Shown here piece after piece: positions 12,361-51,277 of a stretch of 64,000 nt of DNA (the stretch's first letter is position 1; each line of letters starts with the position of its first letter). This DNA comes from Caldicellulosiruptor changbaiensis (GTDB taxonomy: Bacteria > Bacillota > Thermoanaerobacteria > Caldicellulosiruptorales > Caldicellulosiruptoraceae), in the NCBI RefSeq assembly GCF_003999255.1, contig NZ_CP034791.1:62001-126000 (forward strand), read 5' to 3'. The position numbers were made by a program, and so were the translations under genes. The notes beneath the pieces were generated by a model. It was not told where the DNA came from and searched no databases. It saw only the letters and a list, made by a program, of their open reading frames with translations.

Positions 12361-14129
12361 ACAGTATTTAAGTTGAGCAACTCTAACATTATAGTTGATA
12401 GTGTTGAAGTATATGCTGATGGTACAAAGCTTGATACAACAGCGTATACAGTTGATACAACAAACAACACTGTAACACTTTTGGAGAATAAGACAAAGGG
12501 TGGAGCTTTGATTACAATTAAGTATAAATATACAACAACAGATAGCTCAGGAGCTACTGTGACACTTTCTGTCACAGAGAATGGGTATGTTGATTCAACT
12601 ACAGGACAGTTTGTTGATTTTGTAGCAACACCACAGGATACAGAGTTTACATTAACATATGTACCTGATGCAACAGCATTTACACTTTACATTGATGGTG
12701 CAACGGCACCAACAGGAACATATACAGTTGATGCTCAGAATAAGAAAGTAGTTGTAAAAGGCGGATATTTTAATCTTAATGCAAAAGCAGAGGCAAGGTA
12801 TTACTATCATGTGCAAGAAGTAACAAGACCAACAATTGAGCTTACTACAAAGTATGGTGGATATATCTATAACAGGTGCAAAGTAAAAGTAGATGTTGTT
12901 AAAAATCAAGCTGGTGAGGTTATTGGTAAGGTAGTTATTATTGACAAACCTCTTTCAAAGAAAGCATCTGCTAGTGAATTACCACTTACATATTCAACAG
13001 TAGATTATCCAACATTTAGTCTTTTAGTAAGAGCTATTAATAATGACCCAAGGAATGATTTTGTAGAGGCTGTAACAGAATATGAGAATGAACCATCTAC
13101 AAGCATTGCATTAATGCCAGAGACAAACTTTGAAGGTGGAGACGATGGACTTAACCTTTCAAAGGAAGAAATATTCAAAATACTCTCTGGTGAAAGAGAC
13201 GAAAATGGTTACCTTGTAAAAGAAGGTATTTATCATCAACTTGAAAACTATCAGGTTGATTATGTAGTTCCGCTTGGAGTATATGCTGATGATGAGCTTT
13301 TGGACAAGAATGCTAACTTTGCATACGAACTTGCGATGTGTTGTGCTAATATGTCAATAAGAGGTAAATATACAGTAGGTGTTATTGCAACAAGATCACC
13401 GCTCAAAGCAGGGCTTGCAGATATCAACGAATATGCTAATAAACTTGCTAACCTTGATACAGCTTGTTATGTAAAAGACAAAGAAGGTAATATTATCAAA
13501 GATGCAGATGGTAACCCTGTTGACATTGGTAAATTCCTAATCATTGTTGGTGGACCAGATTTAATACTCAAGAATACAAGGTTTGGAGTGTATACAGCTA
13601 ACTCACCAGCAGTGCTTGCTGGTATGATGTCTGCATTACCAGCTGGAGCATCACCAACAAACAAGAAGGTTGAAGGAGTACTTGGACTCAGATTCCAGTT
13701 CTCTAATGCTCAAAGAGACAAGATACTTGGTAATAGAATAGTTGTTTACAAGCAGAAACCAAACGGAGATATTGTAGTAGAAGATGGTGTAACGGCTGCA
13801 AGACCTACATCTGACTATACAAGAATTTCAACTATCAAGTCTGTAAAAGAAGCAGTAGACGCAATTTATGAGGTAACAGAACCATTCATAGGTCAACCTA
13901 ATACTGTTGCTAACAGAAATGCAATGTCAGTTGCTATTTCAAAGAGACTTGGTCAAATGAAAGAAGCTGGTATTATTAATGATTACAAGTTCAATATCAT
14001 ATCAACACTTTATGACCAATTACTTGGTAATGTTAAGATAGAACTTACAATAGTACCTGCATTCGAAATCAGGTCTATTACAACAATAGTATCCTTGAAA
14101 CCAACTCTGTAATGAGTCCAATTTTAATA

Positions 14130-14157
14130 GGGTACTGGGCATAAAAGCCTAGTACCC
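14130..14157 (+). terminator. Hairpin between sheath and tube genes
   Basis: GGGTACTGGGC pairs with GCCTAGTACCC around AAAA. No proper T-run follows, so it may act as an attenuator or mRNA-processing hairpin that sets higher expression of the tube gene. Confidence 0.5.
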
Positions 14158-14187
14158 AACTTTAAAACTTTAAGGAGGAGAAAGATA

Positions 14188-14961
14188 ATGGCAACAACAA
14201 AACAGGATTATTTAAGGACATATACATCATTCAGTGGTGCTGATATACTGGTTTCGTTTGGGCCAAAAGTAATAGGTGAGCTTCAATCAATTTCATGGGG
14301 TATTGAAAGAGAGAAAGCTCCTGTGTATACATTGGGTTCTCCAAATCCAAGATCTTTTTCAAGAGGTAAAAGAGGAATAGCAGGTAAAATGACATTTGCT
14401 GTATTTGACTATGATGCATTAAGGAAAGCTTTAGTAGAAGATACAAATGTATGGAATCAGATAGCTCCATATGCAATGTTTACAGCTGCGCCAAATGCTA
14501 CTCAATCAGTAAATACTGAATATGAAAAAGTTGCGCTTGAAATGTCGTTGTGGAATGCGAAGGCATCTGATGTTAACAACTCTTCAGCTGGATCTGCGTT
14601 TGGGCCAACAGGAACAAATTCCAAGACTGGTACGATAGATTTACCGGAAGGTGCATCGATAAATGTTCCACCTGGATTTGAAATTTTAAAGGCAGAGAAT
14701 ATAATCTATGCTGATATGATACCGCCGTTTGATGTAACAATCACGTTTGCAAATGAATATGGTCAAGCAGCGTTTATGAAGATTTATGACTGTGAAATTT
14801 TGAATGAAGCATCTGGCGTATCAGTTGACACAATTGTTATGGAAAGAGACTTGACGTATGTTGCAAGAAGAATTTCTCCAATCATGAAAGGTGTTTACAC
14901 ACGAGAAGCTAAAGATGATTATACTTTAATTACTCCTAAACCTGTTGTTGAAGGGATATGA
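14188..14961 (+). CDS. Phage tail tube-like structural protein
   Basis: A 257-residue protein directly after a sheath gene, the usual place of the tail tube protein. It begins MATTKQDYLRTYTSFSGADI and contains PPFDVTITFANEYGQAAFMK, a block shared with the second protein at 16967 (PPFDLFIFFANEYGATAYM). The SD AAGGAGGAG is strong. Tube function is inferred from synteny and beta-rich composition; it could also be a baseplate or virion protein of the same fold. Confidence 0.7.
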   Translation: MATTKQDYLRTYTSFSGADILVSFGPKVIGELQSISWGIEREKAPVYTLGSPNPRSFSRGKRGIAGKMTFAVFDYDALRKALVEDTNVWNQIAPYAMFTAAPNATQSVNTEYEKVALEMSLWNAKASDVNNSSAGSAFGPTGTNSKTGTIDLPEGASINVPPGFEILKAENIIYADMIPPFDVTITFANEYGQAAFMKIYDCEILNEASGVSVDTIVMERDLTYVARRISPIMKGVYTREAKDDYTLITPKPVVEGI

Positions 14962-14963
14962 CT

Positions 14964-14996
14964 AAAGCGGGTGTTAAAGCCCGCTTTTACTTTTTT
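14964..14996 (+). terminator. Rho-independent terminator after the tube gene
   Basis: AAAGCGGG pairs with CCCGCTTT, followed by a T-rich tail. Confidence 0.85.
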
Positions 14997-15007
14997 CGGA
15001 ATCTGGG

Positions 15008-15013
15008 TATAAT
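15008..15013 (+). promoter_or_regulatory. Extended -10 box before the secreted-protein gene
   Basis: TGGGTATAAT lies between the preceding terminator and the SD AGGAGGTG at 15021. The secreted protein therefore has its own promoter within the tail cassette. Confidence 0.5.
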
Positions 15014-15034
15014 TAAAGATAGGAGGTGTTGCTA

Positions 15035-16861
15035 GTGAAAAAGAAGATAAGTATTATTATCGTTTTAACCTTATTACTTGTAAATGTTGTTGTATTTGCA
15101 GTTGATACGAATTTCACTCCTATTATAAAACCGACACCTTTTGTAATGGAATATATTTGTGGTGGACTTGGAAAATGTGTAGATGGTCCATTATCAAAAT
15201 CATCATTTATTTATCCAACAGCTATATTTAACGATGAGAATAGTAATAGTATATATGTAGGAGATGCTTTTCTGATAAGGAAAATTTCGAATGGACAAGT
15301 TGAAACCATTTTTAACTTCAAGAATTCAAGTAATTTGAAGAATGTTTTATATAATTCGATTTATAATCATGCAAGATTTGGAGTTGAATATGATAGAATA
15401 GACCCAAAATATTTCCAGAAATATCTTGATAATCCATCATTAATAGAAAAGACTGTTAAATATTCGATAAACAATATGCGTATTAACAGTTTATTTTTAA
15501 CAGGTAATAAGTTATATGTGTACTTTACGATTGTTGAACCTGTATACAGTGTTTCATTTTATTATGACGTGAAACGAAGAAGTTATGCCATGGTTGATAT
15601 AGTATATGAAATTAATTTGAAAACCAAAGAAGAAAAGATGGTTTTGAGTAAAGGTGATAATCACTATTTTGATTTTGCATTTTTTGAAGAAAAACCCAGA
15701 CTTGACGATAATGGAAACATAGTGACAAAGTATGATGATAAACTATTTGTAATGAGAGATGATGTAAAGTATATCAATGGGGTACCTTATGGATACATGT
15801 ACAAACCTTCAACCTTGTTTTATCCAAAGTTTATGAAATATAACGATAGATTTCTATATATTGGAAAATTGCTTATTGATACTCAAACAAATGAAGTTTT
15901 TGATACAGATTTAAACAAAGTTGTCATGGCTAAAGATATACTTTCAAAGGCGGACTTTTATACTATAGGATATAATGACAAAGCCGGAGATTATCTAGTT
16001 AACAATTCTATTATCACATATTCAATAGGAGCAATTAAGAAGGTAATACCGAAATCGAAGTATATAAACAATAGTACGTTAAGTAACAATCTTAGTACTT
16101 TTGATATTCATGGTTGGATTTTTTCACCCAATAGATATGCAACTGGCAATATTCTTCCTGTAATAGATCAGAAGTATGGAAGGGTATATAATTTTCTTTA
16201 CGACAGTGATTATGGTGGTATAGGAATATTTAGACTTGACAAGGATAGTATGGATACATTTTTTGATTTAACAAGAGACGATAATCCTGTACTGGCAGTT
16301 GATGGTCATTTGTTTCCAGTATTTCATGAAGTAGTTTACTGGCTTAATGCACCAGAAGGAGAGATAAGGGAGGTAAAAGGTAAGAAACCTGTTGGTGGAT
16401 TAAGGGATGTGTTTGTGAACAAGGATGAAAGTATGTACATTATAGATTTTGCAGGTCAGATATTCAAGATATATCCTAAGGTTAAGTTTGGATCTCAGAA
16501 CAAGAAATTGGTAGTTAGAAGTTCGAATGTTGATTTTATTTTCAGGAAGATGGGAACGCTTGGTGAGATATCGGACTACATTCTACAGAACAACCAACCT
16601 TGTATTGAGGTAAAGGAACTTGAAAGGATGTTTGGTTTGACAATTACAACTTCAAAAGATGGGACAGTAACAATAGAAAATCCCTACGTAATGGAAAGTT
16701 ATTCTGTCAAGGCCGATATAGTGAAAGGTAGTAAGCATTATGTAAACTACAAAAAAGTTGAGAAGGCTATAAATGAAACTGTTACAAACAAGCAATACTG
16801 GATGTTTAGTTATGATGAGTACAACAATGTTTTGTCTATTGCTACAGTATATGTTGAGTAA
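15035..16861 (+). CDS. Secreted protein with C-terminal copper-amine-oxidase-N-like domain
   Basis: I start it at GTG 15035, seven bases after AGGAGGTG, giving 608 residues. A signal peptide is evident: KKK, then ISIIIVLTLLLVNVVVFA, then a likely cut before VDTNF. The bulk is beta-rich and unrecognised. The last about 110 residues (IEVKELERMFGLTITTSKDG, IVKGSKHYVNYKKVEKAI) resemble the stalk domain found in secreted Firmicute proteins. It has its own promoter and terminator and looks like cargo (a moron) in the tail cassette rather than a virion part. Confidence 0.7.
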   Translation: MKKKISIIIVLTLLLVNVVVFAVDTNFTPIIKPTPFVMEYICGGLGKCVDGPLSKSSFIYPTAIFNDENSNSIYVGDAFLIRKISNGQVETIFNFKNSSNLKNVLYNSIYNHARFGVEYDRIDPKYFQKYLDNPSLIEKTVKYSINNMRINSLFLTGNKLYVYFTIVEPVYSVSFYYDVKRRSYAMVDIVYEINLKTKEEKMVLSKGDNHYFDFAFFEEKPRLDDNGNIVTKYDDKLFVMRDDVKYINGVPYGYMYKPSTLFYPKFMKYNDRFLYIGKLLIDTQTNEVFDTDLNKVVMAKDILSKADFYTIGYNDKAGDYLVNNSIITYSIGAIKKVIPKSKYINNSTLSNNLSTFDIHGWIFSPNRYATGNILPVIDQKYGRVYNFLYDSDYGGIGIFRLDKDSMDTFFDLTRDDNPVLAVDGHLFPVFHEVVYWLNAPEGEIREVKGKKPVGGLRDVFVNKDESMYIIDFAGQIFKIYPKVKFGSQNKKLVVRSSNVDFIFRKMGTLGEISDYILQNNQPCIEVKELERMFGLTITTSKDGTVTIENPYVMESYSVKADIVKGSKHYVNYKKVEKAINETVTNKQYWMFSYDEYNNVLSIATVYVE

Positions 16862-16881
16862 ATCCAGTAAAATAGCAACGT

Positions 16882-16920
16882 GACCACTGCGGTTTTATGA
16901 CCGTAGTGGTCTTTATTTTT
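16882..16920 (+). terminator. Rho-independent terminator
   Basis: GACCACTGCGG pairs with CCGTAGTGGTC, followed by TTTATTTTTT. Confidence 0.9.
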
Positions 16921-16966
16921 TGTCATAAATCTCATGTATATACATAGTTGAGGTGGGAAGTAAACA

Positions 16967-17632
16967 ATGTTTGTGAAGGATGCATATGTAGGAACGCAGA
17001 GTAAAACAACATCATCCACCAAAAAAACAAGCTACAAGTCTAACATATATGAGGTTGAGCGAAAGTATATATCATTTTCTGGTACGGATGCTGTTGCATT
17101 TATACAGTTTCCAAATACAGAGCCATTTGTGATAGGACAAGTACAGGGTATAGAATATGCTATTTACAGAGAGAAGATACCTGTAAGAACACTGGGTAGG
17201 ATATCACCAAAGGGTGTAGCACGTGGTGGAGTTACGATTGCAGGAAGTATCTACTGGGCACTGTTGAAGGAAAACCTGGTAGAGGATATACGAAAAAGGG
17301 TTGAATATCTTGTTGATATTCCTAACTTAAGAGCTGATGAATTACCACCGTTTGACCTGTTTATTTTCTTTGCCAATGAATATGGAGCAACAGCTTATAT
17401 GGTTATTTATGGTATTGATATAGTCGATGCTCATCAGACGTTAATGATAACCAATGTACTCACTGAGAATGTATGGACATTTATGACAAGGGAGATAGAA
17501 GAAGTTAAAGCTGGAACAAAAGCAAGTGGATTTGGTAGTCCAAGTTTCAATCTCCAAAGGGGAGGCTACAAACCATCCATGACATCTTTAAAATCAAAAT
17601 TGATATCCTCAACAAACTTCACTATCACATAA
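16967..17632 (+). pseudogene. Second tail-tube-like gene, 3' truncated at a CRISPR repeat
   Basis: The product is a paralogue of the protein at 14188: FSGTDAVAFIQF, GYAIYREKIPVRTLGR-like spacing and PPFDLFIFFANEYGATAYM. The natural 3' end is missing: at 17544 the reading frame runs into the CRISPR repeat (translated NLQRGGYK) and the adjacent insert before a chance stop at 17632. The start ATG 16967 has GAGGTGGGA upstream. Confidence 0.75.
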
Positions 17633-17837: not shown

Positions 17838-17999
17838 GTTTCGATCCCCAAAGGGGAGGCTACAAACTCAGGGTTTGAGTTATCAGGGTTTGAGTTGCTT
17901 CTGTTTCGATCCCCAAAGGGGAGGCTACAAACTCTTTTATCACTTCGCTTTTTTGATGAAAGCCATCAAGTTTCGATCCCCAAAGGGGAGGCTACAAAC

Positions 18000-18248
18000 A
18001 GTTTGAAAAGCTTGATTTTATTATATCGACTTTGTGCACCTCTGTCAATGTTTTTATTTTAATACATTCCCTCAAAATCAACACAAACTAAGGTGCATCA
18101 AAGAAAAGAAGCCTTTTAACCCTTTCCGTCTATCCAGCTGCTGCCAGCAAACCATTAAAACCTATGTCCCACATACATGAAACCGAATACAAATCAGCTT
18201 TTAAAAATTTTGCACCGGAGGTCGACGGAAGTGACTTTTGGTCAAAAT
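18000..18248 (-). promoter_or_regulatory. CRISPR leader of array C with promoter
   Basis: On the minus strand -35 TTGACA (18043-18048) and -10 TATAAT (18020-18025) are 17 bp apart and about 20 bp from the first repeat. Further out come the conserved block CCTTTCCGTCTATCCAGC and the distal block GGAGGTCGACGG...GACTTTTGGTCAAAAT. Homology to the leader at 30549 continues about 150 bp beyond the usual end, up to the IS at 18404. Confidence 0.9.
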
Positions 18249-18445
18249 TAATATATAGTCGTAAAATTAACGTATTATGTGCATAATCATAAAATAAGCA
18301 CACGTTGTTTTTCAGCAGGAAGAAATATATTTAAATTACACCTGTTGAAGATATTTAGATGTTATATTGTTAACAATAATAACTAATTATAACTATATTT
18401 AAGTTGTTGAATAAATAATTATACCATTAATGTTATTATATAGGA

Positions 18446-19394
18446 TTACAAATTATTCCACGTGTATTTAAAAGAAAATTTACAGTTTTCAATTTTTTGA
18501 ATATAGACCTCTATCAAATAAGTAATCATTATCCAGTCTACATGCTTCTTATATGTTCTAAAACCTCTTAACCTTACTTGTTCTAAATTGTATTCTCCTT
18601 TTAATTTCCCAAATAATCTTTCTATTTTTGTCCTTTGCTTATATAACCTTTGTCCTTCTTCACTTCTTAAAAATTCTATATTTTTTATCCTCAAAATATT
18701 TTTTACATTACTGAAATCCTTACTATTTCTCTTATTTACCGCCGCTACAAACTTTATCTCAAGTCTATCTGCCACCTCAAACCACTTCGCACAATCATAA
18801 CCTGCATCTGCTAATATCACTTCAGGTCCAAATATCTTAGCTTCATACAAAAGTCCTACTACTTTACTGTCATGGACATTTGCACGTGTCAACCGCCATA
18901 TTATTGGTATAACCTCATCTCCAATTGTTGCTATTACATGTAATTTATATCCATTGTAAAAACCTAAACTAATACATACTCCTATTCCTGCTTCTTTGTC
19001 ACCCCTCGAGCTTCTCAAAGGTGTTGAATCTATAGCACAAATTTTTGTCTGCGGATCTATTTCTCTCACTAAAATTCTTGCTATTCCTTCTATATATTCT
19101 TCTTCAATTATCTTTGCCCATTTCGAAAAATATGAATGATCGGGGGCTCTTCTCTATCCCTATAGCTTTTTTAAATTCTTCATCTTCGTTTATCTTGTAT
19201 TCTAATTTTCTGAAGCTGTTTATCTTGTTTTTGACTTTGTAAACAAAACAAGCTACTATATGGCTTAACTTAAACTTCTTTGGTCTTCCTCTTCTACTGC
19301 TTTTTATCTTTAATCCCGAGGCTTTTATTACTTTCTCAATTGTCATAAGTATCTTTAAAAATTTTTGATTTTGTGTTTTAATAAAATTAGTCAT
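18446..19394 (-). pseudogene. DDE transposase (IS4/IS5-like), frameshifted
   Basis: The N-terminal part (MTNFIKTQNQKFLK, SSRRGRPKKFKLSHIVACF) runs from ATG 19394 and leaves frame at a C-run near 19141-19145; the C-terminal frame (DHSYFSKWAKIIEEEY onward) covers the rest to 18446. Catalytic residues are present: CAIDSTPLR (Asp), ILADAGYDC (Asp) and RTKIERLFGKLK (Glu). The shift could be a mutation or a programmed frameshift as used by some ISs; the sequence alone does not decide. Confidence 0.85.
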
Positions 19395-19395
19395 T

Positions 19396-19460
19396 GCCAT
19401 CCTCCTTAGTTAGGTGTTTTTAGTCTTCTCTTACAATAATTTTACCTCAAGGAGGATGGC
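19396..19460 (-). promoter_or_regulatory. Hairpin covering the transposase ribosome binding site
   Basis: GCCATCCTCCTT (19396-19407) is a perfect inverted repeat of AAGGAGGATGGC (19449-19460). On the minus strand the downstream arm contains the SD AAGGAGG of the transposase, so a read-through transcript would hide it. The same arms exist in the remnant at 44954. Confidence 0.7.
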
Positions 19461-19645
19461 TTTTTATATATATCTATTTATTGTCTTTTCTGTTAATCAG
19501 TTTTATTCAACAAGCTAATAATATACGATAAAAAATTTGGATTTAATGAAATTTTTAAATTAGTTATAGTCTGTCATCGCACAATTAAAAAGTTATAGAA
19601 CGACAAAACCTGGTCATAAGGCTATTGTATGGGAGTTGGGAAAAT

Positions 19646-22042
19646 ATGAAAAAAAGTTCCCCATATGAAAGTCTGATGGAGAGAATTGAAAATATAATTT
19701 TACAATCTGAGGAGAATAAAAAAATATGGATTATTTTTTCAGAACAAAGTGAGGAACAATCTTTTTTGGAATTTGCAAAACTAAGCGGAATTGATGATAT
19801 ATCTGCTGGTTCTCTGATAGTATTTTATCTTGATGTTTTGTATAAATATGGAATTAATATAGATCAATTATTTGAAGAACCGCTGGATGATTATTTTGGC
19901 AGATGTAAATATACCGTTGATGATAAAGAAATTTCGAAGTTATTTTATGAACAGGATTTTTACAAGAAGCTAAAGCAGTGTTATGGACAGTGGATCAAAG
20001 ATATTATATCTAATATTAATGAGCTGATAATCAGGAGAGGGTATAACAAAGTAGAAGATGTTTCTATTTCGAAAACAGGTAATATAAAAAGGTTAAAGAA
20101 AATAGCTGATAAGGTAAACGAAATAATTTATAATAATATTTCTCTGGAGAATAAAATAAAAGAACTTGAAGAAAGGCTTGGTATTGAAGAAATAGAAAAA
20201 GATAAGATTTTTGAAAATATAACAAATCAACAAAATGAGTTGAATGAGATTACGAGAAGGTACGACCAGATCATAAAGAAAAATCAAGTTTTGAAGCAAG
20301 AACATGAAAATAGAATTAAAATTTTAGAAGAAAAACGTCAAAGTTTACTAATTGAAAAAGAGAAATTATTTAATAAAAAAACAGAACTGATATTATTGAT
20401 TACTACGAAAAGAGAAGAGAATGCTATACTCAGGAAAAAATATGAAAGCGAAAAAAGCAAACTTTATTTCAAAAAAGAGATGACAAAATTTTTCGATAAT
20501 ATTACAGGTAATATTGCTTTTTTGAAAAAAATAATTGATGGAGTGAAAACAGGGCAGGCAAAAGATTTTTCAAAGTTGTGTCGGGAAACACTTGACAGGA
20601 TTTCTGATAATGAAAATCATATAAAAGTGTGGAGTGAAGAGATAAAAAGAATAAAAGAGAGGATTAAAAAAATAGATACTGAATTAGATTTAATTAAAAA
20701 AGAATTTGCCAGTGAAAGACTTAGATTTGAAGAAAGTACAAAGGAATATAATTCTATAGCTAATATAATTGAAGAAAAAAAGAAGACAATTGAAGATAAA
20801 ATCAAAAAAGCAAGAGAAAAGGAGAATTCAATTAACAATATAATAAAAGAAATTAATGAAATTAGAAAAAGACTTTTTACAAGTCAGGAAGTTGAACGCT
20901 TGATTGAACTGAGTAATTTACTATTATGTAGCAGTGAAATTTTGGTAAAAGAAGTGTATGATAAAATCAAGATATACATTGAAGAAAATTTTAGAGACCA
21001 AATAGATGCTATAAACGTTCTAAAGTTAAAAATTATTAGTCTTTTGTATCTGGTTCTACTTCATTCTGGTAAAATTGAAAATGAGTATATATATTTTTTG
21101 GTTGAGGAAGGAATTGAAATTTCAAAATTAGATTATGATTTGTTGAAGGGTCTTCTGGGTAAATATTTTGAAATAGATTACTTTACGTTAAAGCAAAATT
21201 ATGAGGAATATGAAGATTTTAATTACGACTTATTACAACAGGAAAAAGAGGAAAATAGAAATTTTGAAAATAATGAGCCATCTGATTATATAAATGAATT
21301 AAACGATATTGGGGATTTAACAAAAGCTAATAGGTATGAAGGAGAAGAAGAGGAAAAAACTTCATATTTGGAGTTTAGGGATATAAGTGTTGAAGAAAGG
21401 AGAATAAGATTAAAAGAATCTGTCGAAGAAAGGAAAATAGAATATCTTGTCCATTTTACTAATTTGAAAAATTTAAAAAGCATAATGACAAATGGAATTA
21501 TTCCTGTAGGATATCATGATAAATACAAAATTTCTGCTTGCATTAATGATAGCAGCAGATATGATAAATGTTTAGATGCTTCAAGTTTATCAATTAGTTT
21601 CCCGAATTATAGAATGTTTTATAAAGTAAGGATAAATAATCCTTCTGAGCGATGGGTAATTATTTTGTTAGATCCAAGTATTATATGGAAAAAAGATTGT
21701 GCGTTTAACAGAACCAATGCTGCGAATAATCAAATGAGTTCAACATCTTTGCAGTATAGAAAAACTATACAGGCTTTTAATGATATGTTTGGAGATGAAA
21801 AGCTAAGAAAAGAAATTGGGCTGCCTTCTTATTTCACAACAGATCCTCAGGCAGAGGTTTTAGTTTTTGATATTATAGAACCTGAGTATATAAGGAAAAT
21901 AGTTGTGGAAAAAGAAGAAGACAGGGAATATATATTGAATACATTATCTTTGAATGATGAAATGGTAATTGTTGATGTCAAGTATTTTAGACCAAGGTTT
22001 GACTTTAATTATTGGAGAGGAGAGGATTTAATATGGCTGTAA
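19646..22042 (+). CDS. Long coiled-coil protein with C-terminal DarT-like (DUF4433) domain
   Basis: 798 residues from ATG 19646 (GGGAG upstream). About residues 1-150 form a globular region (YESLMERIENII, LEFAKLSGIDDISAGSLIVF). Residues about 150-430 are predicted coiled coil, rich in E, K and I, similar in style to SMC arms. The last 200 residues resemble DarT, which ADP-ribosylates thymidine in DNA: YLVHFTNLKNLKSIMTNGI at 601-619, FNRTNAANNQ around 691 and FTTDPQAEVLVFDI with the presumed catalytic Glu at 737. No macrodomain antitoxin (DarG) is adjacent. First gene of a four-gene operon, overlapping the next by 10 bp. Confidence 0.8.
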   Translation: MKKSSPYESLMERIENIILQSEENKKIWIIFSEQSEEQSFLEFAKLSGIDDISAGSLIVFYLDVLYKYGINIDQLFEEPLDDYFGRCKYTVDDKEISKLFYEQDFYKKLKQCYGQWIKDIISNINELIIRRGYNKVEDVSISKTGNIKRLKKIADKVNEIIYNNISLENKIKELEERLGIEEIEKDKIFENITNQQNELNEITRRYDQIIKKNQVLKQEHENRIKILEEKRQSLLIEKEKLFNKKTELILLITTKREENAILRKKYESEKSKLYFKKEMTKFFDNITGNIAFLKKIIDGVKTGQAKDFSKLCRETLDRISDNENHIKVWSEEIKRIKERIKKIDTELDLIKKEFASERLRFEESTKEYNSIANIIEEKKKTIEDKIKKAREKENSINNIIKEINEIRKRLFTSQEVERLIELSNLLLCSSEILVKEVYDKIKIYIEENFRDQIDAINVLKLKIISLLYLVLLHSGKIENEYIYFLVEEGIEISKLDYDLLKGLLGKYFEIDYFTLKQNYEEYEDFNYDLLQQEKEENRNFENNEPSDYINELNDIGDLTKANRYEGEEEEKTSYLEFRDISVEERRIRLKESVEERKIEYLVHFTNLKNLKSIMTNGIIPVGYHDKYKISACINDSSRYDKCLDASSLSISFPNYRMFYKVRINNPSERWVIILLDPSIIWKKDCAFNRTNAANNQMSSTSLQYRKTIQAFNDMFGDEKLRKEIGLPSYFTTDPQAEVLVFDIIEPEYIRKIVVEKEEDREYILNTLSLNDEMVIVDVKYFRPRFDFNYWRGEDLIWL

Positions 22043-22725
22043 GACCTGTATTTTTGTCAACTGACCCTGAGGAAGAAGAGTTGGTGAAAGTTGTAGATGT
22101 TGAATTTGAGTGGTATGCAGGTTTTTCCTTATCACAGAAGCAAAAATGTATTGAATCCCTTCATAAAAATTTTATAAAAGAGTTTGGGTCTAAGAATATT
22201 CTGGAGATCTCAACAAAATCAAATAATAAACTTGGTGTTGAACTAAGCGCATTTAATCTTAAAATTTACTATGAGCCACTTAAGAAATTAGTTCCTGTTG
22301 AAAATGTGTTTCAGGCAAGTAAAGTTTTTGAAGGAAATGTTCAATATTTAGACCTGTTAGAAAAAACACCAATCGAAGCAAAAAAGGACAGCAGATTAAG
22401 AAATAGCGGCAAATTAATTTACTTTAAATATAATGAAACCAAATGGGAATTAGAACCGAAAACATTATTTTATGATTGGCTTTATATAAATGCTTTGTAT
22501 AATAATAAGGAATTGGCTGAAAAGATTATTAGCTATGAAGCATTTACTGATATAGAGTTCAATCCTGAAAAGTCATACAACTGTCAGGCAAGATCAGCAG
22601 CTCTGTACGTTTCGTTTTATAAAAGAAAATTATTTCCTGATATACTGGATGTAGAATTTTATAAAAGTTATGTTAATAAAAATTCTAAAAGGTCTTCTAA
22701 TCTACAACAGATTTCTTTTGAGTAG
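22033..22725 (+). CDS. Conserved protein found with DarT-like genes (DUF6977-like)
   Basis: 230 residues from ATG 22033, chosen for the GGAGAGGAGAGG SD. Recognisable blocks are RPVFLSTDPEEEELVKVVDVEFEW, GFSLSQKQKCIESLH, SAFNLKIYY, FYDWLYINALY and FNPEKSYNCQARS. I recall this pattern from a family of small proteins near DUF4433 genes, but the name is from memory. No macrodomain signature (such as N-D-D or G-V-G-G-I) is visible, so it is not an ordinary DarG. A partner or substrate-recognition role is inferred from coupling to the DarT-like gene. Confidence 0.65.
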   Translation: MAVRPVFLSTDPEEEELVKVVDVEFEWYAGFSLSQKQKCIESLHKNFIKEFGSKNILEISTKSNNKLGVELSAFNLKIYYEPLKKLVPVENVFQASKVFEGNVQYLDLLEKTPIEAKKDSRLRNSGKLIYFKYNETKWELEPKTLFYDWLYINALYNNKELAEKIISYEAFTDIEFNPEKSYNCQARSAALYVSFYKRKLFPDILDVEFYKSYVNKNSKRSSNLQQISFE

Positions 22726-22760
22726 TTTGCGGTGAAAATTTAGCAGAGGATGATTTTCAG

Positions 22761-25310
22761 ATGCTCCTTGTAAGAGACCAGATGATGAAAAAGATGAAGA
22801 AAGAGAAGAATAAGAAGAAAATACTCAAGATTCTATCTTTTGCCAGGGAAATTCAGCAGATAGGGAAAGAAGAGTTGAGAAATAGTTTGTACATAAGGAA
22901 AATAAAAGGATGTAGAGAACCTATCTTTAAGTTTCGTTTGAATACCAATGAAAGAGTTTTGTTTATGTTTGGATCGGATATTGAGGATTTAAGAGAAGAA
23001 TTCAAAAATGCTATAGTTTTGATAGATTATTGCAATCATGACAGTCAAATTATAAAAGCCAGGAGAATTGAAAGCATCAATGCTAATAAGATAGAAGAAG
23101 ATTTAAAAATTGAGATGTGGACTTCGGAAGATGAGTTTGATAATGAAATTAATGCTTTATACAAAAACTATAAATTCTGTGTCAATCAAGAGATGAATAT
23201 AGTAATTTCAGACCAGTTTATGAAGTATCTTATAGAAGATGATAGTGAGGAATATCTTTATTATCTAAATGATGAACAGTATGAATGTCTTAAAAACTCG
23301 ACATTGGCAACAATTGTAAAGGGAAGTGCTGGTTCAGGCAAGACAACAATTTTGCTACACAAATTAGGAATGCTGGCAGGAGACAAATTAAAGGTAGGGT
23401 ATTTCACATACACATCCTATCTAAGAGATAGAGCTGAAAATATTTATAGTAAATACTGGAAGTATGATAAAAGCAAGATTTATTTTTACTCTTTAATTGA
23501 CTTTTTACTCAGGACCACAGGTATAAGCATGGATAGGGTTGTTACTTTGAACAGGTTCAAGCAGTGGTACATGAACACTGTTGGTCGATTTTATAAGTTC
23601 CACTATATTGATGTATGGACAGAAATTAAGGGGATAATAAAAGGTTGTATGGGTATAAATTGGATTAGAGACAGGGCAATCCCAGTTGAATTTTTAGATG
23701 ATCGGATAGCAGAATTTTTTGAAAAAAAGGGATACATAAAAAGGCATTCTGACAGGTGGATATTACATACACAAAAAAGTTTAAATGAGATCAAAGAAGA
23801 ACTGTACAGAGAAGGGTACAAAGGTGAAAGGGAGATTTTGGTAATAGAAAACTTGAAAAAATATTTTTATCGACTTCATAATTTAATTGATACAGCAAAG
23901 TCAGGACTTGATGAAGAATATTATCTTGAATTGCCAGAAGATTATTCTATTTTTTCATATGAAGACCGAAAAGAGATATATCAGATCTACTTGAAATACA
24001 ATGAATGGTTAAAGGAATCTAACCTGTTTGATGAAGATGATTTAGCTCTCATAGTTATAGAAAAAATAAAGAGAAATGAAATTGAAAAATTCGATTTTTT
24101 GCTTGTCGATGAAATTCAAGATTTGAGCGAAGTTGAAATATATGCATTAATTAATCTTGTAAAGAACAAGGAGAATATAATTGCAACAGGAGATGTACAT
24201 CAAATTATAAATCCTACGTTCTTTAGTTTTGGGAGAGTTGCTAATTATTTTTCTTGCATAGATGTCAACTTCAAAGAATTTTGTCTTAAAAAGAATTACA
24301 GAAGTCAAGAGCAGATAGTTGCACTTGCCAACAAAATGTGTGAGTTTAGGAAAAAATATATTGGTGCGCTTTCTGATGACATACTTGAAGTCAGTATAAG
24401 AAGCGGGGAAAAACCGTGGATTGTTCCGCTTGATAAAAACAATTTAGAAAAGGCTGTTGAATTTGTCTCTACAACTAAAAGTTCAGTTTTGGTTGTTGAA
24501 GATGAAGATACAAAGAATAAGATAGCATCGAAATACAATATTTTAGAAAAAACCTTTACTGTGCATGAGGCAAAGGGATTGGAATTCAATTATGTTATTT
24601 GTTTAAATTTGATATCAAAACATGAAGATGTATGGATGGATATACTTTCTGGAGTAGCCAAAAGAATTTCAAAATACAGATACTTTTTTAATTTGTTTTA
24701 TGTTGCTATTACAAGATGTAAAAGATGGCTAATAATTATGGAAGAAAATCCTTATATTGATATTATTGAGGCTTTAAAGGGATATATATGGTATTCTGAT
24801 GTTCTTGAAATTGATGAAAAAATGTTGGAAATCAGTTCGATAGAAGAAAGGTATCAGTATGCAAGAATGTTAGAACAAAAAGAAATGCTGAAAGAAGCTA
24901 TTTCAGCTTATGAAAAACTCGGGAGCGAAAAGGATGTTCTGAGATGTCGAATAAAGCTACAGGCAGAAGCAACAGGATATGAAAAAGCTGGAGATAGACT
25001 TTTGGAAATTGAAGAGTTTGAAGAGGCAGCAAAATATTATTTTAAGGCTCTATGCTATGAAAAGATGATAAAGGCAAAAATTCTGGCTGGAAATTATATC
25101 AACAGAGAAGACATTTTGAAAGAAGATATGAATGAATATAATATAACATGGCCAGGACTTTTAAGCAAATTTGACGACAGAGAGATTGTTCAATTGTATC
25201 ATAAATATTTCAGTGGGAAATGCGAAAAAATTAAAAACCTTTTCAATGACATAGATTTTTACATAAACTATTCAGCAGAAATGCTAAAAATAATTGATGG
25301 GGGAAAATAA
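22761..25310 (+). CDS. UvrD/Rep-like superfamily I helicase with extra N- and C-terminal regions
   Basis: 849 residues. Helicase motifs: YECLKNSTLATIVKGSAGSGKTT (motif I near 187-195), FLLVDEIQDL (motif II, Asp 450), KKNYRSQEQIVALANKM (motif IV), TVHEAKGLEFNYVICLNL (motif V) and FYVAITRCKRWLIIM (motif VI). Residues about 40-110 (LYIRKIKGCREPIFKFRL, RVLFMFG, IVLIDYCNHD) look like a RelE/ParE-type fold. The last 200 residues form TPR-like helices (AISAYEKLGSEKDVLRC, FEEAAKYYFKALCYE). The start ATG 22761 follows AGAGGATG. It is followed by the last operon gene after one base. Confidence 0.88.
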   Translation: MLLVRDQMMKKMKKEKNKKKILKILSFAREIQQIGKEELRNSLYIRKIKGCREPIFKFRLNTNERVLFMFGSDIEDLREEFKNAIVLIDYCNHDSQIIKARRIESINANKIEEDLKIEMWTSEDEFDNEINALYKNYKFCVNQEMNIVISDQFMKYLIEDDSEEYLYYLNDEQYECLKNSTLATIVKGSAGSGKTTILLHKLGMLAGDKLKVGYFTYTSYLRDRAENIYSKYWKYDKSKIYFYSLIDFLLRTTGISMDRVVTLNRFKQWYMNTVGRFYKFHYIDVWTEIKGIIKGCMGINWIRDRAIPVEFLDDRIAEFFEKKGYIKRHSDRWILHTQKSLNEIKEELYREGYKGEREILVIENLKKYFYRLHNLIDTAKSGLDEEYYLELPEDYSIFSYEDRKEIYQIYLKYNEWLKESNLFDEDDLALIVIEKIKRNEIEKFDFLLVDEIQDLSEVEIYALINLVKNKENIIATGDVHQIINPTFFSFGRVANYFSCIDVNFKEFCLKKNYRSQEQIVALANKMCEFRKKYIGALSDDILEVSIRSGEKPWIVPLDKNNLEKAVEFVSTTKSSVLVVEDEDTKNKIASKYNILEKTFTVHEAKGLEFNYVICLNLISKHEDVWMDILSGVAKRISKYRYFFNLFYVAITRCKRWLIIMEENPYIDIIEALKGYIWYSDVLEIDEKMLEISSIEERYQYARMLEQKEMLKEAISAYEKLGSEKDVLRCRIKLQAEATGYEKAGDRLLEIEEFEEAAKYYFKALCYEKMIKAKILAGNYINREDILKEDMNEYNITWPGLLSKFDDREIVQLYHKYFSGKCEKIKNLFNDIDFYINYSAEMLKIIDGGK

Positions 25311-25311
25311 A

Positions 25312-25998
25312 ATGGATGCAAACAGCAAGATAACTGAGATAGCAGAGAGTTTTGAAAAACTTTATGATGATGTGCATAAAATAGTGGAGTTATTGGTTAA
25401 GTTCAATGAAGTGCTTGAACTTCTATCTAAAACGTTGGAAAAAGTCAAACTTTATGCAGAAACAAGTGAAACATTAGAGAAGCTAAATGCAATTGGGATA
25501 TCAATCATAGAAGTAACAAAAAGTATGGAAAAAGGAGCAATTGAGTTTAAAGAAAGAGAATTAAATGAAATAGAAAAAATACAGAAATATTTTCAAGAAG
25601 TCGTTTCAAGAACTGAAGAGTCTTTTTCACAATTTTTCGAGACTTCAAAAAATCTAATTAATGAGTTGAATAAAAATATTAATAATTTAATGCAGGAGAC
25701 AAACAATTGGTTCGATGAAAATAGAATAAGGATGGAAGAGATATTTAAAATTCAGCAGGAATCATATCAAAAACTTATGCAGACAAACAATTATATGAAG
25801 AGAAAAATGGAATTACTCATCCAAAACATGGAAAGTGAATATAAACAGTTGATGGAATTAGTGGATTTTATAGTAATTCAGAAGAATAATTACAGTAAAA
25901 TAAACAAAAAGATTTTGATAAATATACTGCGGCAAAACGATAAATCATACGAAATTGTTTTAAAACCAAGAAGCAATCCAAGACACCCAAAGTATTAA
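25312..25998 (+). CDS. Coiled-coil protein closing the DarT-like operon
   Basis: 228 residues from ATG 25312 (GGGGG upstream, inside the end of the helicase gene). The sequence is almost wholly helical with heptad spacing (VHKIVELLVKFNEVLELLSK, LINELNKNINNLMQETNNW) and a basic tail. No transmembrane segment or catalytic motif is seen. It may bridge or oligomerise the other products, much as the coiled coil of the first gene would. Ended by a strong terminator at 26056. Confidence 0.75.
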   Translation: MDANSKITEIAESFEKLYDDVHKIVELLVKFNEVLELLSKTLEKVKLYAETSETLEKLNAIGISIIEVTKSMEKGAIEFKERELNEIEKIQKYFQEVVSRTEESFSQFFETSKNLINELNKNINNLMQETNNWFDENRIRMEEIFKIQQESYQKLMQTNNYMKRKMELLIQNMESEYKQLMELVDFIVIQKNNYSKINKKILINILRQNDKSYEIVLKPRSNPRHPKY

Positions 25999-26055
25999 TG
26001 AGATTTATATTTTGAAATGAAATTGATTCTTGAGGCATATCTGCTTTTCAAAATA

Positions 26056-26088
26056 AAAAGAGGCACTTTTTAAAGTGCCTCTTTTTAT
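26056..26088 (+). terminator. Terminator of the four-gene operon
   Basis: AAAGAGGCACTTT pairs with AAAGTGCCTCTTT followed by TTATAT. Confidence 0.9.
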
Positions 26089-26301: not shown

Positions 26302-26443
26302 TCAATGCTCCAATTTCATCAATTCTTTTTGAAAATCTGAGTTAAAACTCTTGCACTTGAACATGTGTTTGTATTTGTGTCTATTTGTGTTATGCAGAAA
26401 TGAATACCGCACAAGATTATTTAGAGGAAATTTTACAAAAAGA

Positions 26444-26473
26444 ATTTCAATCCCCAAAGGGCAGGCTACAAAC
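26444..26473 (-). CRISPR. CRISPR locus D: single repeat plus leader
   Basis: One 30-bp repeat of the C-type centre (AAAGGGCAGG) stands directly beside a complete leader. No second repeat is visible to the left, so there are no spacers. Such a leader-repeat unit is in principle competent for first acquisition. Confidence 0.85.
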
Positions 26474-26721
26474 GCGTTCAAATGTTTGATTTTATTATAT
26501 CAACTTTATGCAAAGATGTCAATGATTTTATATCAGTACATCATATCAAAATGACACTCAGATCAGAAAATTCAAGGTGTAAAACACCATCAAACCCTTC
26601 CGTCTATCCAGCTGTTGCTAGAAATCAAGTCAAAGCCTTACCACATCTAAATAAAACCGTATCCAAATTAAACCCCAAAATTTTTGCACCTGAGATCGAC
26701 AGAAATGACTTTTAGTCAAAA
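26474..26721 (-). promoter_or_regulatory. CRISPR leader of locus D with promoter
   Basis: Minus-strand TTGACA (26517-26522) and TATAAT (26494-26499) with 17-bp spacing. The block CCTTCCGTCTATCCAGCTG and the distal GAGATCGACAG...GACTTTTAGTCAAAAT are conserved. Confidence 0.9.
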
Positions 26722-26887
26722 TAACAATTTTATTCATAAATCTTGCAAATATATATATATAGTCCGATGCAGTTTTTAAAAAGGAAATTTGGCTTATACT
26801 ACGTTCGTTATTAAAATTGAACTAAATGACAAATGTTAAATGTTAACGTTTGTTTTTATCCTGCTTAGAATTTTAAAGAGCTTAAGG

Positions 26888-27182: not shown

Positions 27183-28175
27183 TCAGTTTCTGTGCTTTGC
27201 ACGAAGCTCTTTTATCTTTTCAAACGAAAGTCCTGTAATCTCTGCTATCTCCTCATCTTTGTAACCTTTTAAAATCATCCTCTCAGCTGTCTCTATCTTG
27301 CTCTGCTCAAATCCCTGCCTAATACCTTGCTCAATTCCCTGCTGAATTCCCTGCTGAATTCCTTGCTGTAATCCTTCAAAAATCAACTCTTCTCTTATCT
27401 TTCTCAAATTCTGAAATAGTGGCATAGCTTTTTCACCCCCTCTTACAGTCTCATCAATCGCTCTTTTGGCAGCCTCAACTTCTATCTCCTCAAGCTCCCT
27501 CAAAGCAACTGGCAAGCACACCTTCAACACCTCTATCTCCTTCTCCTCTGCCCCCCATAAATATTCTCTCAGCTCCAAAAATAACCTCTCTAACTCCTCA
27601 TATCTCTTAATCCTATTGAGCTTCAATATTAAGCTCAGTATGTCTTTCACTTGCAAAATGCTTTCTGCTTGGTTTAAGTCAATCAATATATACTCAAAAT
27701 CAATTACGCAATTTCCAAACTCCTCAAATCCTAAAATCTTCTCCCTCAGCCTTCTTGTAGCTGTCCACCTGTCTTCCCCGTCGTAAAACACTATCGGCAC
27801 AACTGCCGGCAATGTAAATCCCTTTTTCCTTATTTCCCCTTTGTCAAAATCTTTGACATAGTCTCTGTATATATCTGTGATGTAAAACAAAAGCCTTATT
27901 GACATTGAATGGTCAACTGTTGATTGATGTTCAAACAAAATGTAAAAGATAATCTCTTTCTCTTTTAAATTGACTTTATAGAGGATGTCACTTTCCTGTT
28001 CAGAGAAGTCTGGCAAAACATAACTTTTGTCAATTCTTTCAAGCTGGTCTTCTGTAAGATTTTTGAATACCCCAATCTCATCAAGTCTTTTTAAAAACCT
28101 GAGGAAGATGCTTTTGTTAGAGAATATGTATTTGTACTCCAGGTCATTTATGTTGTGAGGAAGCAGGTTATTCAT
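27183..28175 (-). CDS. Rpn-family nuclease (PD-(D/E)XK, transposase_31-like)
   Basis: Rpn proteins are DNA endonucleases related to YhgA of E. coli, where they promote RecA-independent recombination. Here the nuclease core shows FSEQESDILYKV and FYILFEHQSTVDHSM (D...ExQ), then IPIVFYDGEDRW. The C-terminal region has the Gln-rich pentad GIQQGIQQGIEQG and a helix-turn-helix-like KDEEIAEITGLSFEKIKEL. I take ATG 28175 (AGGTG six bases before) rather than GTG 28184; length 330. Its 5' end faces the leader-distal end of CRISPR array E, about 100 bp away. Confidence 0.9.
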   Translation of the reverse strand: MNNLLPHNINDLEYKYIFSNKSIFLRFLKRLDEIGVFKNLTEDQLERIDKSYVLPDFSEQESDILYKVNLKEKEIIFYILFEHQSTVDHSMSIRLLFYITDIYRDYVKDFDKGEIRKKGFTLPAVVPIVFYDGEDRWTATRRLREKILGFEEFGNCVIDFEYILIDLNQAESILQVKDILSLILKLNRIKRYEELERLFLELREYLWGAEEKEIEVLKVCLPVALRELEEIEVEAAKRAIDETVRGGEKAMPLFQNLRKIREELIFEGLQQGIQQGIQQGIEQGIRQGFEQSKIETAERMILKGYKDEEIAEITGLSFEKIKELRAKHRN

Positions 28176-28273
28176 TATTTTCACCTGAAGAGTTTTCTAA
28201 GAAACATTATAACAAATGAAAAGGATAATATCAAACATATTTTCTTATCCAAGATGAGAAGTAAAAGATCTGC

Positions 28274-28570
28274 GTTTCACTCCCCAAAGGGTAGGCTACA
28301 AACATAGGCTTTTCAAACTTCTTGATATAGGTGAACAAGGTTTCAATCCCCAAAGGGTAGGCTACAAACACTGTATGTCATTCCCGATATCAGGACAACA
28401 AGAGGCGTTTCAATCCCCAAAGGGTAGGCTACAAACATGTTTATTATGTTTATGCCATAGTGTCGTATAAATGTTTCAATCCCCAAAGGGTAGGCTACAA
28501 ACAAGACATGGGGTGGAATGTATTCAACAGCTGGAATACCGTTTCAATCCCCAAAGGGCAGGCTACAAAC
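28274..28570 (-). CRISPR. CRISPR array E, five repeats
   Basis: Repeats start at 28274, 28340, 28407, 28473 and 28541; spacers are 36, 37, 36 and 38 bp. The four leader-distal repeats have GGGTAGG, whereas the leader-proximal one has GGGCAGG like locus D and array F. Since new repeats copy the proximal one, no spacer has been added since that change. Confidence 0.97.
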
Positions 28571-28819
28571 ACGTCAAATAGCTTGATTTTATTATATCAA
28601 CATTATACACCCCTGTCAATGTTTTTATATCAAAACATCTGTGGAAAACTCACATCAAGTCAGAAAAATCAAGCTATATAGCCACCTCAAACCCTTCCGT
28701 CTATCCAGCTGGTACCAGAACATCAAGCAATCCTACATGCCTCAGCATTGAAACCGCATACAAATCAAACCTCAAAATTTTTCTACCGGAGGTCGACAGA
28801 TATGACTTTTGGTCAAAAT
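28571..28819 (-). promoter_or_regulatory. CRISPR leader of array E with promoter
   Basis: Minus-strand TTGACA (28614-28619), 17-bp spacer, TATAAT (28591-28596), then about 20 bp to the first repeat. All distal blocks are intact, including CCTTCCGTCTATCCAGCTG and GGAGGTCGACAG. Confidence 0.92.
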
Positions 28820-28895
28820 GAAATAATATAAATTGTCTTTTGAATAATAACTCAAAAAGTGAAATCTCTATTCTACTGCTGCTTGCTAAAACAAT

Positions 28896-28954: not shown

Positions 28955-29944
28955 TCAATTTCTATGCTTTGCACGAAGTTCTTTTATTCTCTCAAGCGAA
29001 AGTCCTGTAATCTCTGCTATCTCCTCATCTTTGTAACCTTTTAAAATCATCCTCTCAGCTGTTTCTATTCTGCTTTGCTCAAAACCTTGCTGAAACCCTT
29101 GCTGAAGTCCTTGCTGCAGTCCTTGCTGTAGTCCTTGTTGAAGCCCAAGGTTAAATTCTTTTGTTTTTGCTTCATCGAGAAGTCTTGCTACATTAGATAC
29201 AAAATCACCCATCTTCTCAGCACCCCCTTGTTTGACTCTCTCTACTACCCTTTCATACTCTTCTCTCTGCTCTTCCAATAACCTCGGTCTTATAATGTAA
29301 TACACCCACCTTAAAAATCTATCTATGTTCTCTTTGCTTAGCTTCTCTAAATTCTTCTCAACCTCTAAAAGCCTTCTTATAAGCTCATCCCTGTCTTCTC
29401 TTACCTGCTCTAAATAAAATACTATAGGTGTCAGCAAATCTTTTTCTTCTTCCAAAATCTTTTTAACATCTATCTCAAATACATCAACTACTCTGTATCT
29501 AAATACATCATCTTTAAAAGTCTCAAATGCCTCCATTAAGTCAGTCGAAATATTCCATTTTTCCTTGATTCCGTTGTATACCACTATGGGTATAACAGGA
29601 GGCAAGTTTTCTACTCCTTTGCTAAGTTCATTCCACCACAGGCTTACCATGTACTTTAGTATCTTTTGGGCCATATCTCTTCTTACTGTTGATTGGTTCT
29701 CAATTAAGATGTAAAAATACATTTCTCTGTTTTTCAGTTTTGCTTTAGCTACAATGTCGGCTCGCAGCTGCGAAAAGTGCTGTGTTACAAATTCGCTGTC
29801 ATCAAATTCTATAGATTCTTCTTCTATCTCCTCTGCCCATTTGTACTTGAGTATATCTTTGACAAGAAGTAACAGCTCTTTTTTGTCTTTGAGTAGGAAT
29901 TTAAAGGTAGTGTCATGTTCCATCGATGGAAGTTCACTGTTCAA
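28955..29944 (-). CDS. Rpn-family nuclease, second copy
   Basis: 329 residues, clearly related to the protein at 27183 but of a different subgroup in its N-terminal half: SMEHDTTFKFLLKDKKELLLL, HFSQLRADIVAKAKL and FYILIENQSTVRRDM carry the PD-(D/E)XK residues. The end has the Gln-rich repeat GLQQGLQQGLQQG and a terminal segment almost identical to the first copy (MILKGYKDEEIAEITGL). TTG 29944 follows GGAGTGAAG; ATG 29923 is the alternative. It lies at the leader-distal end of array F. Confidence 0.9.
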   Translation of the reverse strand: MNSELPSMEHDTTFKFLLKDKKELLLLVKDILKYKWAEEIEEESIEFDDSEFVTQHFSQLRADIVAKAKLKNREMYFYILIENQSTVRRDMAQKILKYMVSLWWNELSKGVENLPPVIPIVVYNGIKEKWNISTDLMEAFETFKDDVFRYRVVDVFEIDVKKILEEEKDLLTPIVFYLEQVREDRDELIRRLLEVEKNLEKLSKENIDRFLRWVYYIIRPRLLEEQREEYERVVERVKQGGAEKMGDFVSNVARLLDEAKTKEFNLGLQQGLQQGLQQGLQQGFQQGFEQSRIETAERMILKGYKDEEIAEITGLSLERIKELRAKHRN

Positions 29945-30119: not shown

Positions 30120-30548
30120 TTTTCAATCCCCAAAGGGCAGGCTACAAACCATGAATGGTATAGCTTCATTGGATGAGCTTTTCTCGTTTCAATCCCCAAA
30201 GGGCAGGCTACAAACTTGGTATGTTGATGAAGACAAAAAGCTTCATTTTGTGTTTCAATCCCCAAAGGGCAGGCTACAAACCTGGTGCAGGGAGAACACA
30301 GCAACAACGTATCGCTGGTTTCAATCCCCAAAGGGCAGGCTACAAACTGGTTGCTTTTCTATGTACTGCGTGAGAATTCAAAGCGGTTTCAATCCCCAAA
30401 GGGCAGGCTACAAACTCTTTGTAATCCTTTGCTATGTTTTTGTCAGCTGGTTTCAATCCCCAAAGGGCAGGCTACAAACCTTCATACCGGAAGAGACATT
30501 GCAATCTAAAAGAAAAACGTTTCAATCCCCAAAGGGCAGGCTACAAAC
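30120..30548 (-). CRISPR. CRISPR array F, seven repeats
   Basis: Repeats start at 30120, 30186, 30252, 30318, 30386, 30450 and 30519, all with GGGCAGG; only the first base of the terminal copy differs. Six spacers of 36, 36, 36, 38, 34 and 39 bp. It is the most uniform array here and the likeliest to have been active recently. Confidence 0.98.
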
Positions 30549-30798
30549 ACGTTCAAATGCTTGATTTCATTATATCAACTTTATGCAAAGGTGTCAATGT
30601 TTTTATATCAGTACATTATATCAAAGTGCTGCTCAAATCAGAAGATTCAAGAGCTAAACCCTCATCAATCCCTTTCGTCTATCCAGCTGTTGCCAGAAAT
30701 CAAGCCAAAGCCTTGCTATATCGAAATTAAACCGTATCCAAATCAAAACTCAAAAATTTTGCACCGGAGGTCGACGGAAGTGACTTTTGGTCAAAATG
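30549..30798 (-). promoter_or_regulatory. CRISPR leader of array F with promoter
   Basis: Minus-strand TTGACA (30592-30597), 17 bp, TATAAT (30569-30574). The rest follows the common 250-bp layout. Similarity to the array C region continues to about 30950, so the two loci arose by a duplication larger than the leader. Confidence 0.92.
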
Positions 30799-31031
30799 AA
30801 TATATAATCGTAAAATTAATGTATTATATGCATAATCATAAAATAAGCAGAAAGTTGTATTTCGGCAAAAAGAAATTCATCTCAATCACCCCTGTAGATG
30901 ATATTTAGGAGTCATATTGTTTACAAGAATAACTAATTATAACTATATTGTGCAAAAGCAGAATTTAATTTTTTTGCGAATTTTGTCAAAAAGAAGAGCG
31001 AGAAGCGTTTAAAAAAAGGAAAAATTGGTTT

Positions 31032-41067: not shown

Positions 41068-41165
41068 TTTTCAATTTCCAATAAGCAGATCACAAAAGCA
41101 GTTGCGGAATTTGCCACAGTATTCATTGCAGCTGCATTCCAATTCCCAAAGGGTAGGCTACAAAC
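41068..41165 (-). CRISPR. Decayed CRISPR locus G, two degenerate repeats plus leader
   Basis: The leader-proximal repeat 41136-41165 has several changes in its first half (ATTCCAATTCCC). A more degenerate copy at 41068-41097 stands one spacer (38 bp) away. The leader follows at 41166. Confidence 0.75.
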
Positions 41166-51258: not shown

Positions 51259-51277
51259 CTCTCAATTCCCACCTTTT

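Follow-up and report, generated by a model that had tools for sequence, protein, structure and literature searches.

A predicted DarTG1 toxin–antitoxin pair, with a long coiled-coil extension on its toxin, encoded ahead of a UvrD-like helicase in Caldicellulosiruptor changbaiensis

Do four closely spaced genes of Caldicellulosiruptor changbaiensis, in which a DarT-like toxin domain is encoded together with a UvrD-like helicase, form a single new defence system? The genes (designated genes 1 to 4) lie in a stretch of 64,000 nucleotides, bases 62001–126000 of a 2.9-Mb single-contig genome, which is hereafter called the window. An earlier reading made from the letters of the DNA (hereafter, the sequence-only reading) had proposed a candidate new four-gene defence system in which the usual antitoxin was missing. 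We found that genes 1 and 2 are almost certainly, judging from alignments and structural models, a DarTG1 system, because gene 2 encodes a NADAR protein with intact catalytic residues and the C-terminus of gene 1 is a complete DarT1. DarT1 and NADAR are a guanine-specific toxin–antitoxin pair, in which DarT1 marks guanine and NADAR removes the mark and rescues the cells (PMC11543638).

The open reading frames (ORFs) of the four genes (Table 1) are all on the forward strand; genes 1 and 2 overlap by 10 bp, and gaps of 35 bp and 1 bp separate genes 2 and 3 and genes 3 and 4, respectively, in agreement with the sequence-only reading. The single terminator that it placed after gene 4 was likewise located; terminator-like sites were about equally frequent in shuffled sequence, although the one here is long and in the right position. 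Genes 3 and 4 are probably co-transcribed with genes 1 and 2.

Gene 2 matched the Pfam family PF22397, 'DarT1-associated NADAR antitoxin' (E = 4.5e-86), and the structure of the NADAR of Geobacter lovleyi (PDB 8bat; E = 9e-62), whereas it went unidentified in PADLOC, PHROGs and NCBIfam. Its residues E90, K97, K117 and D173 are spaced like E88, K95, K115 and D171 of the NADAR of Escherichia coli C7, and are conserved in 67, 67, 65 and 69 of 69 NADAR relatives, respectively. By these alignments, gene 2 is a DarT1-specific NADAR antitoxin with its catalytic residues intact. The sequence-only reading had placed the gene 2 product, without a name, in a family of small proteins encoded near DarT-like genes; that family is the NADAR antitoxin of the DarTG1 subtype. 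Its view that the antitoxin is missing does not hold, since DarTG1 uses NADAR instead of a macrodomain. A macrodomain antitoxin was sought among genes 1–4 by Pfam scan and none was found; with NADAR present, none is needed.

The DarT family of Pfam (PF14487) was detected at residues 603–768 of the gene 1 product (E = 6e-16), with long coiled coils on its N-terminal side, and the motifs HFTN, NAANNQ and AEVLV, to which attention had already been drawn together with this fusion, are all present. In the PDB, the sole sequence match of the C-terminus was the DarT1 of E. coli C7 (8baq; E = 1e-32, 36% identity). The AlphaFold2 model of the domain, with a predicted local distance difference test score (pLDDT) mostly above 90, has the DarT fold and superimposed on 8baq in a structure search with a template modelling score (TM-score) of 0.82 (E = 1e-16), whereas DarT2 structures were far weaker matches (E ≥ 4e-7, TMt ≤ 0.60). 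Moreover, H603, F604, T605, N634 and D635 align on H17, F18, T19, N48 and D49 of the C7 enzyme, R638, D640, S649, M657 and F658 on R52, D54, S63, M71 and F72, and Y659, K660, N691, Q735 and E737 on Y73, K74, N104, Q150 and E152; the C7 positions so aligned are those that have been published as NAD+, guanine or catalytic residues (PMC11543638). The residues D640, N691, S649, M657 and F658 are features of DarT1, and E737 is present in all 39 DarT1 sequences that cover the position; the database sequence of 8baq reads A at E152, because the protein was crystallised as its E152A mutant. Tyr75 of the C7 enzyme is replaced by V661, at a position that also varies among the relatives. From alignment and model together, the C-terminus of gene 1 is judged to be a complete DarT1, and not a DarT2. 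In DarTG2 (DarT2–DarG), too, an ADP-ribosyltransferase toxin of the DarT type is paired with an antitoxin that removes the mark; that antitoxin is a macrodomain, whereas here a NADAR accompanies the DarT1 set of residues and the structural match is much weaker.

Compared with the C7 DarT1, which in 8baq consists of one domain of about 208 residues, gene 1 encodes some 600 further residues on the N-terminal side. In the AlphaFold2 model, the first 143 residues are of low confidence and are followed by two very long helices (Table 1) and by further helices, with pLDDT of about 56–91 in the first long helix and 65–87 across most of the second. The coiled coil gave weak matches only, to SMC-type coiled coils. 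Among 398 genomes of the phylum, no homologue of the extension was found outside the genus; on plasmids, among the matches listed, only the DarT part was matched; and the viral contigs held no relative of gene 1, extension included.

To define the unit to which gene 1 belongs, the neighbourhoods of NADAR genes were compared in 69 loci gathered by similarity to gene 2, comprising 61 loci of bacterial or archaeal genomes (with flanking sequence of at most 8 kb per side) and 8 of viral contigs. In about 54 of them a DarT gene directly precedes that for NADAR, and no relative of gene 3 or gene 4 was found in any. NADAR also occurred on 28 plasmids; the two small ones examined hold just the toxin and the antitoxin beside replication and other small genes, and DarT1–NADAR is found as a free two-gene unit both in the roughly 54 loci and on plasmids down to 6 kb. 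The frequent upstream DarT, the plasmid pairs and the lack of gene 3 or gene 4 relatives together lead us to regard genes 1 and 2 as an autonomous module. It has in common with the DarTG1 of E. coli C7 and Geobacter lovleyi (PMC11543638, 8baq, 8bat) the toxin gene directly upstream of that for NADAR, the DarT1 fold and active site, the NADAR family with its catalytic residues, and a location that is often near other defence genes; it differs, apart from the extension, in being followed by two further genes.

N-terminal extensions of about 100–800 residues were present in about one-fifth of the DarT1 toxins of these loci (an automatic count gave 11 that exceed 120 residues; a few others were shorter or misread). 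They were mostly unrelated to one another and none resembled that of gene 1; DarT1 thus seems often to be joined to variable, possibly sensing, domains. Diverse extensions were seen in L016:6203-8008, L017:6292-8001, L019:545-3556, L024:6562-8001, L029:6572-8008 and L033:6284-7996, that of L019 containing a DUF4116 repeat region. In Ruminococcus, DarT1-type NADARs without a detectable upstream DarT (L047:2984-4314, L050:4748-6084 and L067:7078-8642) adjoin a sugar-nucleotide/acyltransferase-like gene, with a gene of about 192 codons directly downstream, and possibly have another role.

The explanation that we consider probable is that genes 1 and 2 are a DarTG1 system acting in phage defence, in which the extension oligomerises or targets the toxin, and to which genes 3 and 4 are accessory or adjoined as a second module. 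DarTG modules stop phage DNA replication. By analogy with its relatives, from which the chemistry and the anti-phage effect are carried over, the DarT1 domain would move ADP-ribose from NAD+ onto guanine bases of DNA, and NADAR would strip it off again, so that the host genome is kept clean at rest. On phage infection, modification would exceed removal, phage DNA replication and transcription would halt, and the infected cell would die or stall without releasing phage. The coiled-coil N-terminus would most likely oligomerise the toxin or dock it to a partner that sets the time and place of its action, and genes 3 and 4 would be accessory or a second, independent defence module, not core parts; these roles, like the function in this organism, we infer. 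According to earlier work summarised by Schuller and co-workers, both DarTG subtypes protect against phage (PMC11543638), in keeping with the defence role that the sequence-only reading had proposed. Several points weigh against this explanation. Expression, toxicity and a phage effect of the operon are argued from its sequence and from relatives; the role assigned to the extension is a guess, because no homologue was found outside the genus; and, because the loci were gathered through gene 2, the comparison could have overlooked a subgroup in which a helicase accompanies more divergent NADARs. Furthermore, the close packing of genes 2, 3 and 4 ahead of one terminator suggests that all four genes are expressed together, which a pure two-gene reading leaves unexplained.

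Gene 3 is, as had been recognised, an SF1 (superfamily 1) helicase, of the UvrD type; the additional domains, a YoeB/RelE-like one before the helicase core and a helical, tetratricopeptide repeat (TPR)-like one after it, are tentative. The Walker motifs are intact, a Walker B-type DEIQD lying at residues 450–454. The AlphaFold2 model was poor (mean pLDDT 48; N-terminus below 50), and was used solely for the likeness of the helicase core to SF1 helicases. The family has two forms, with a TPR-like or an ankyrin-type C-terminus and a common N-terminal domain in which K47, R59, R65 and F68 are invariant, and gene 3 is 29–33% identical to the TPR-type relatives. When aligned with a profile of YoeB/RelE made from toxins of relatives (34 sequences), the N-terminal profile gave hhalign P values of 1.4e-5 to 3e-5 over only 29–41 columns (controls, 0.1–0.23), and in single-sequence Pfam scans one of eight members matched YoeB, at E = 0.14; the likeness is a suggestive lead that we do not accept as an assignment. 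Ankyrin-type UvrD helicases whose N-terminus is possibly YoeB/RelE-like were seen in L073:6151-8955, L074:7935-10727 and L087:6554-9466, and this family also occurs on plasmids of E. coli and Shigella.

The relatives of gene 3 in the genome G329 and in Cetobacterium, Paraclostridium and E. coli plasmids share its invariant N-terminal residues but differ in the C-terminus in the ankyrin subgroup, and are single genes in varied contexts, mobile plasmids included, with no DarT, NADAR or gene-4-like coiled coil beside them. No relative was found on the viral contigs, a search with the gene 3 profile included, and phage records gave one weak helicase match. Gene 4 is, as had been stated, a coiled-coil protein; it matched no family and had no homologue in the genus or on the plasmids searched. 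That two independent defence modules, DarTG1 and a helicase module of gene 3 and perhaps gene 4, share one transcript is a tentative way of filling in the explanation preferred above, and one not fully exclusive of it. The solitary occurrence of the helicase relatives, the YoeB/RelE-like profile and a weaker similarity to defence helicases, among them GajB of Gabija, speak for it. However, the profile likeness is short and falls where the model is poor, the helicase family is at most a putative defence family, and gene 4 has no relative tying it to gene 3. The GajB match (PADLOC, E = 1e-21) covers parts of the core only and is of the same kind as the similarity to the housekeeping helicases PcrA, UvrD and Rep, and the operon contains no partner like the nuclease GajA.

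The four genes were found together in no second genome, whether in the genus, the phylum sample, the NADAR loci, the contexts of helicase relatives or the plasmids. In the phylum sample, NADAR was present in seven genomes and a gene 3 relative (E ≤ 1e-20) in another set of seven, the only genome common to both being that of the window, and phage records gave no NADAR match. The join of genes 1 and 2 with genes 3 and 4 was thus seen once. With no helicase at the 69 loci and the helicase relatives in unrelated contexts, the set is conserved as a unit in none of the collections searched, contrary to the proposal made from the sequence. Unrelatedness by conserved neighbourhood, which that proposal had itself named as counting against it, is observed between genes 1–2 and genes 3–4, in part only. 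The statement that no described system with this gene set is known agrees with a literature search that found no DarT–helicase or coiled-coil DarT system, weak evidence given its incomplete coverage.

We therefore consider it unlikely that all four genes form one system. In such a system, the helicase and the coiled-coil protein would sense infection, for example through abnormal DNA ends or replication forks, and would switch on or target DarT1 through coiled-coil contacts with its extension, while NADAR protects the host; equally doubtful is the variant in which a helicase with a toxin-like N-terminus and a coiled-coil adaptor dock on the extension and direct ADP-ribosylation to invading or replicating DNA. 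The compact one-strand layout with one terminator, the presence of coiled coils in gene 4 as well as in gene 1, and the low GC content of all four genes (27–31%, against 35% in the window) are what favours it. The comparative data, on the other hand, give no support to control of the toxin by a helicase or coiled coil: the NADAR loci lack the helicase, the helicase relatives lack DarT, NADAR and a gene-4-like partner, and the genus holds only a remnant of gene 1.

This remnant was found in a comparison of 12 genomes of the genus (that of the window included), in which genes 1–4 were otherwise absent from the other members searched. The sister species (G003) retains 845 bp of the 5' end of the operon with 90.7% nucleotide identity and an in-frame TAA stop, flanked on one side by a CRISPR array and on the other by sequence that reads like a broken transposase. 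Identity was 90.9% in the coding and 90.5% in the non-coding part, and the mismatches numbered 23, 19 and 23 at the three codon positions, which is the pattern of a dead copy. In the same genome pair, two stretches of chromosome were 72% and 75% identical. Given about 91% in the remnant against 72–75% in the chromosome, the 5' end of the operon was probably transferred between the species after the divergence of their chromosomes, and was broken in one of them. Lateral exchange and loss of a dispensable module are the pattern expected of defence genes, though not proof of such a role; as the remnant breaks off within gene 1, it gives no information on whether genes 3 and 4 were transferred too. 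The broken copy and the insertion sequence (IS) directly upstream might suggest a decaying, non-functional operon carried as passenger DNA in a CRISPR- and IS-rich region, which is very improbable given that no stop interrupts the four frames in 6.3 kb of this AT-rich genome and that every checked catalytic residue of genes 1 and 2 and the Walker motifs of gene 3 are intact.

The surroundings noted in the sequence-only reading, CRISPR repeats on both sides, an IS and Rpn genes, were all recovered (Table 1). A sequence of about 296 bp occurs six times (17964-18259, 26438-26733, 28535-28830, 30513-30808, 41131-41426 and 48984-49279), each copy beginning with a terminal CRISPR repeat, and a seventh, partial copy lies near 57540; the copies probably represent the leader sides of numerous small CRISPR arrays spread over 40 kb, each adjoining accessory genes. 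Genes at 12373-17632, beside CRISPR repeats, resemble fragments of a contractile phage tail (the tail-sheath match being weak) and include two mutually similar proteins of about 220–257 residues; a stretch resembling the repeats overlaps one of the ORFs (16967-17632) in its 3' part. A Csx20-like CRISPR accessory gene is located at 41707-42114 (E = 2e-53). The region 49468-53173 encodes a HerA-type ATPase (PADLOC 'HerA, Type III coevolved', E = 1e-180) and, 20 bp upstream on the same strand, a protein of 631 residues that matched nothing in Pfam or PADLOC; the two genes may be another defence module, linked to the type III CRISPR system. An AbiEii-like gene (57875-58766), with a small upstream partner, was matched weakly (E = 8e-6).

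Table 1 Features of the operon and its surroundings, in window positions.
Feature	Position	Strand	Basis or remark
CRISPR repeats flanking the operon on either side	17838-18000; 26444; 28274-28571; 30120-30549		
IS transposase, two ORFs, directly upstream of the operon	18446-19400		
Stretch kept as a broken remnant in the sister species G003	19519-20363	+	Matches L092 9935-10779, reverse strand
Gene 1, DarT1 with N-terminal helical/coiled-coil extension of about 600 residues, 798 aa	19646-22042	+	ORF, Pfam, PDB, model
Gene 1, coiled-coil part, two very long helices (residues 144-285 and 304-409)	20075-20872	+	AlphaFold2
Gene 1, DarT1 ADP-ribosyltransferase domain (residues 600-798)	21443-22039	+	PDB match and residue mapping
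Gene 1, codon of catalytic Glu737	21854-21856	+	
Gene 2, NADAR antitoxin (DarG1), 230 aa	22033-22725	+	Pfam, PDB, residue mapping
Gene 3, SF1 UvrD-like helicase, 849 aa	22761-25310	+	PF00580, E = 1e-12; family alignment
Gene 3, Walker A GSAGSGKT (residues 188-195)	23322-23345	+	Sequence; largely invariant in family alignments
Gene 4, coiled-coil protein, 228 aa	25312-25998	+	No family above cut-off
Intrinsic terminator 3' of gene 4	26053-26088	+	16-pair stem, then T run
Rpn/PF04754-type gene, downstream of the operon	27183-28184		Pfam match
Second Rpn/PF04754-type gene, downstream	28955-29944		Sequence likeness to the first; the Pfam scan covered the 27183-28184 copy

DarTG1 itself has already been described; as far as the searches reach, the novelty here lies in how large the extension is and in which genes share the operon with the pair. 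The locus corrects a likely misreading, in that a DarT without a nearby macrodomain need not lack an antitoxin. To our knowledge, the phage trigger of DarT toxins is not settled. The DarT1 toxins with large N-terminal extensions, about one-fifth of those examined, are natural candidates for having built-in sensing or targeting parts, and since an extension and a helicase are found here in one operon, the locus offers a defined, testable set-up for asking whether such partners regulate DarT1.

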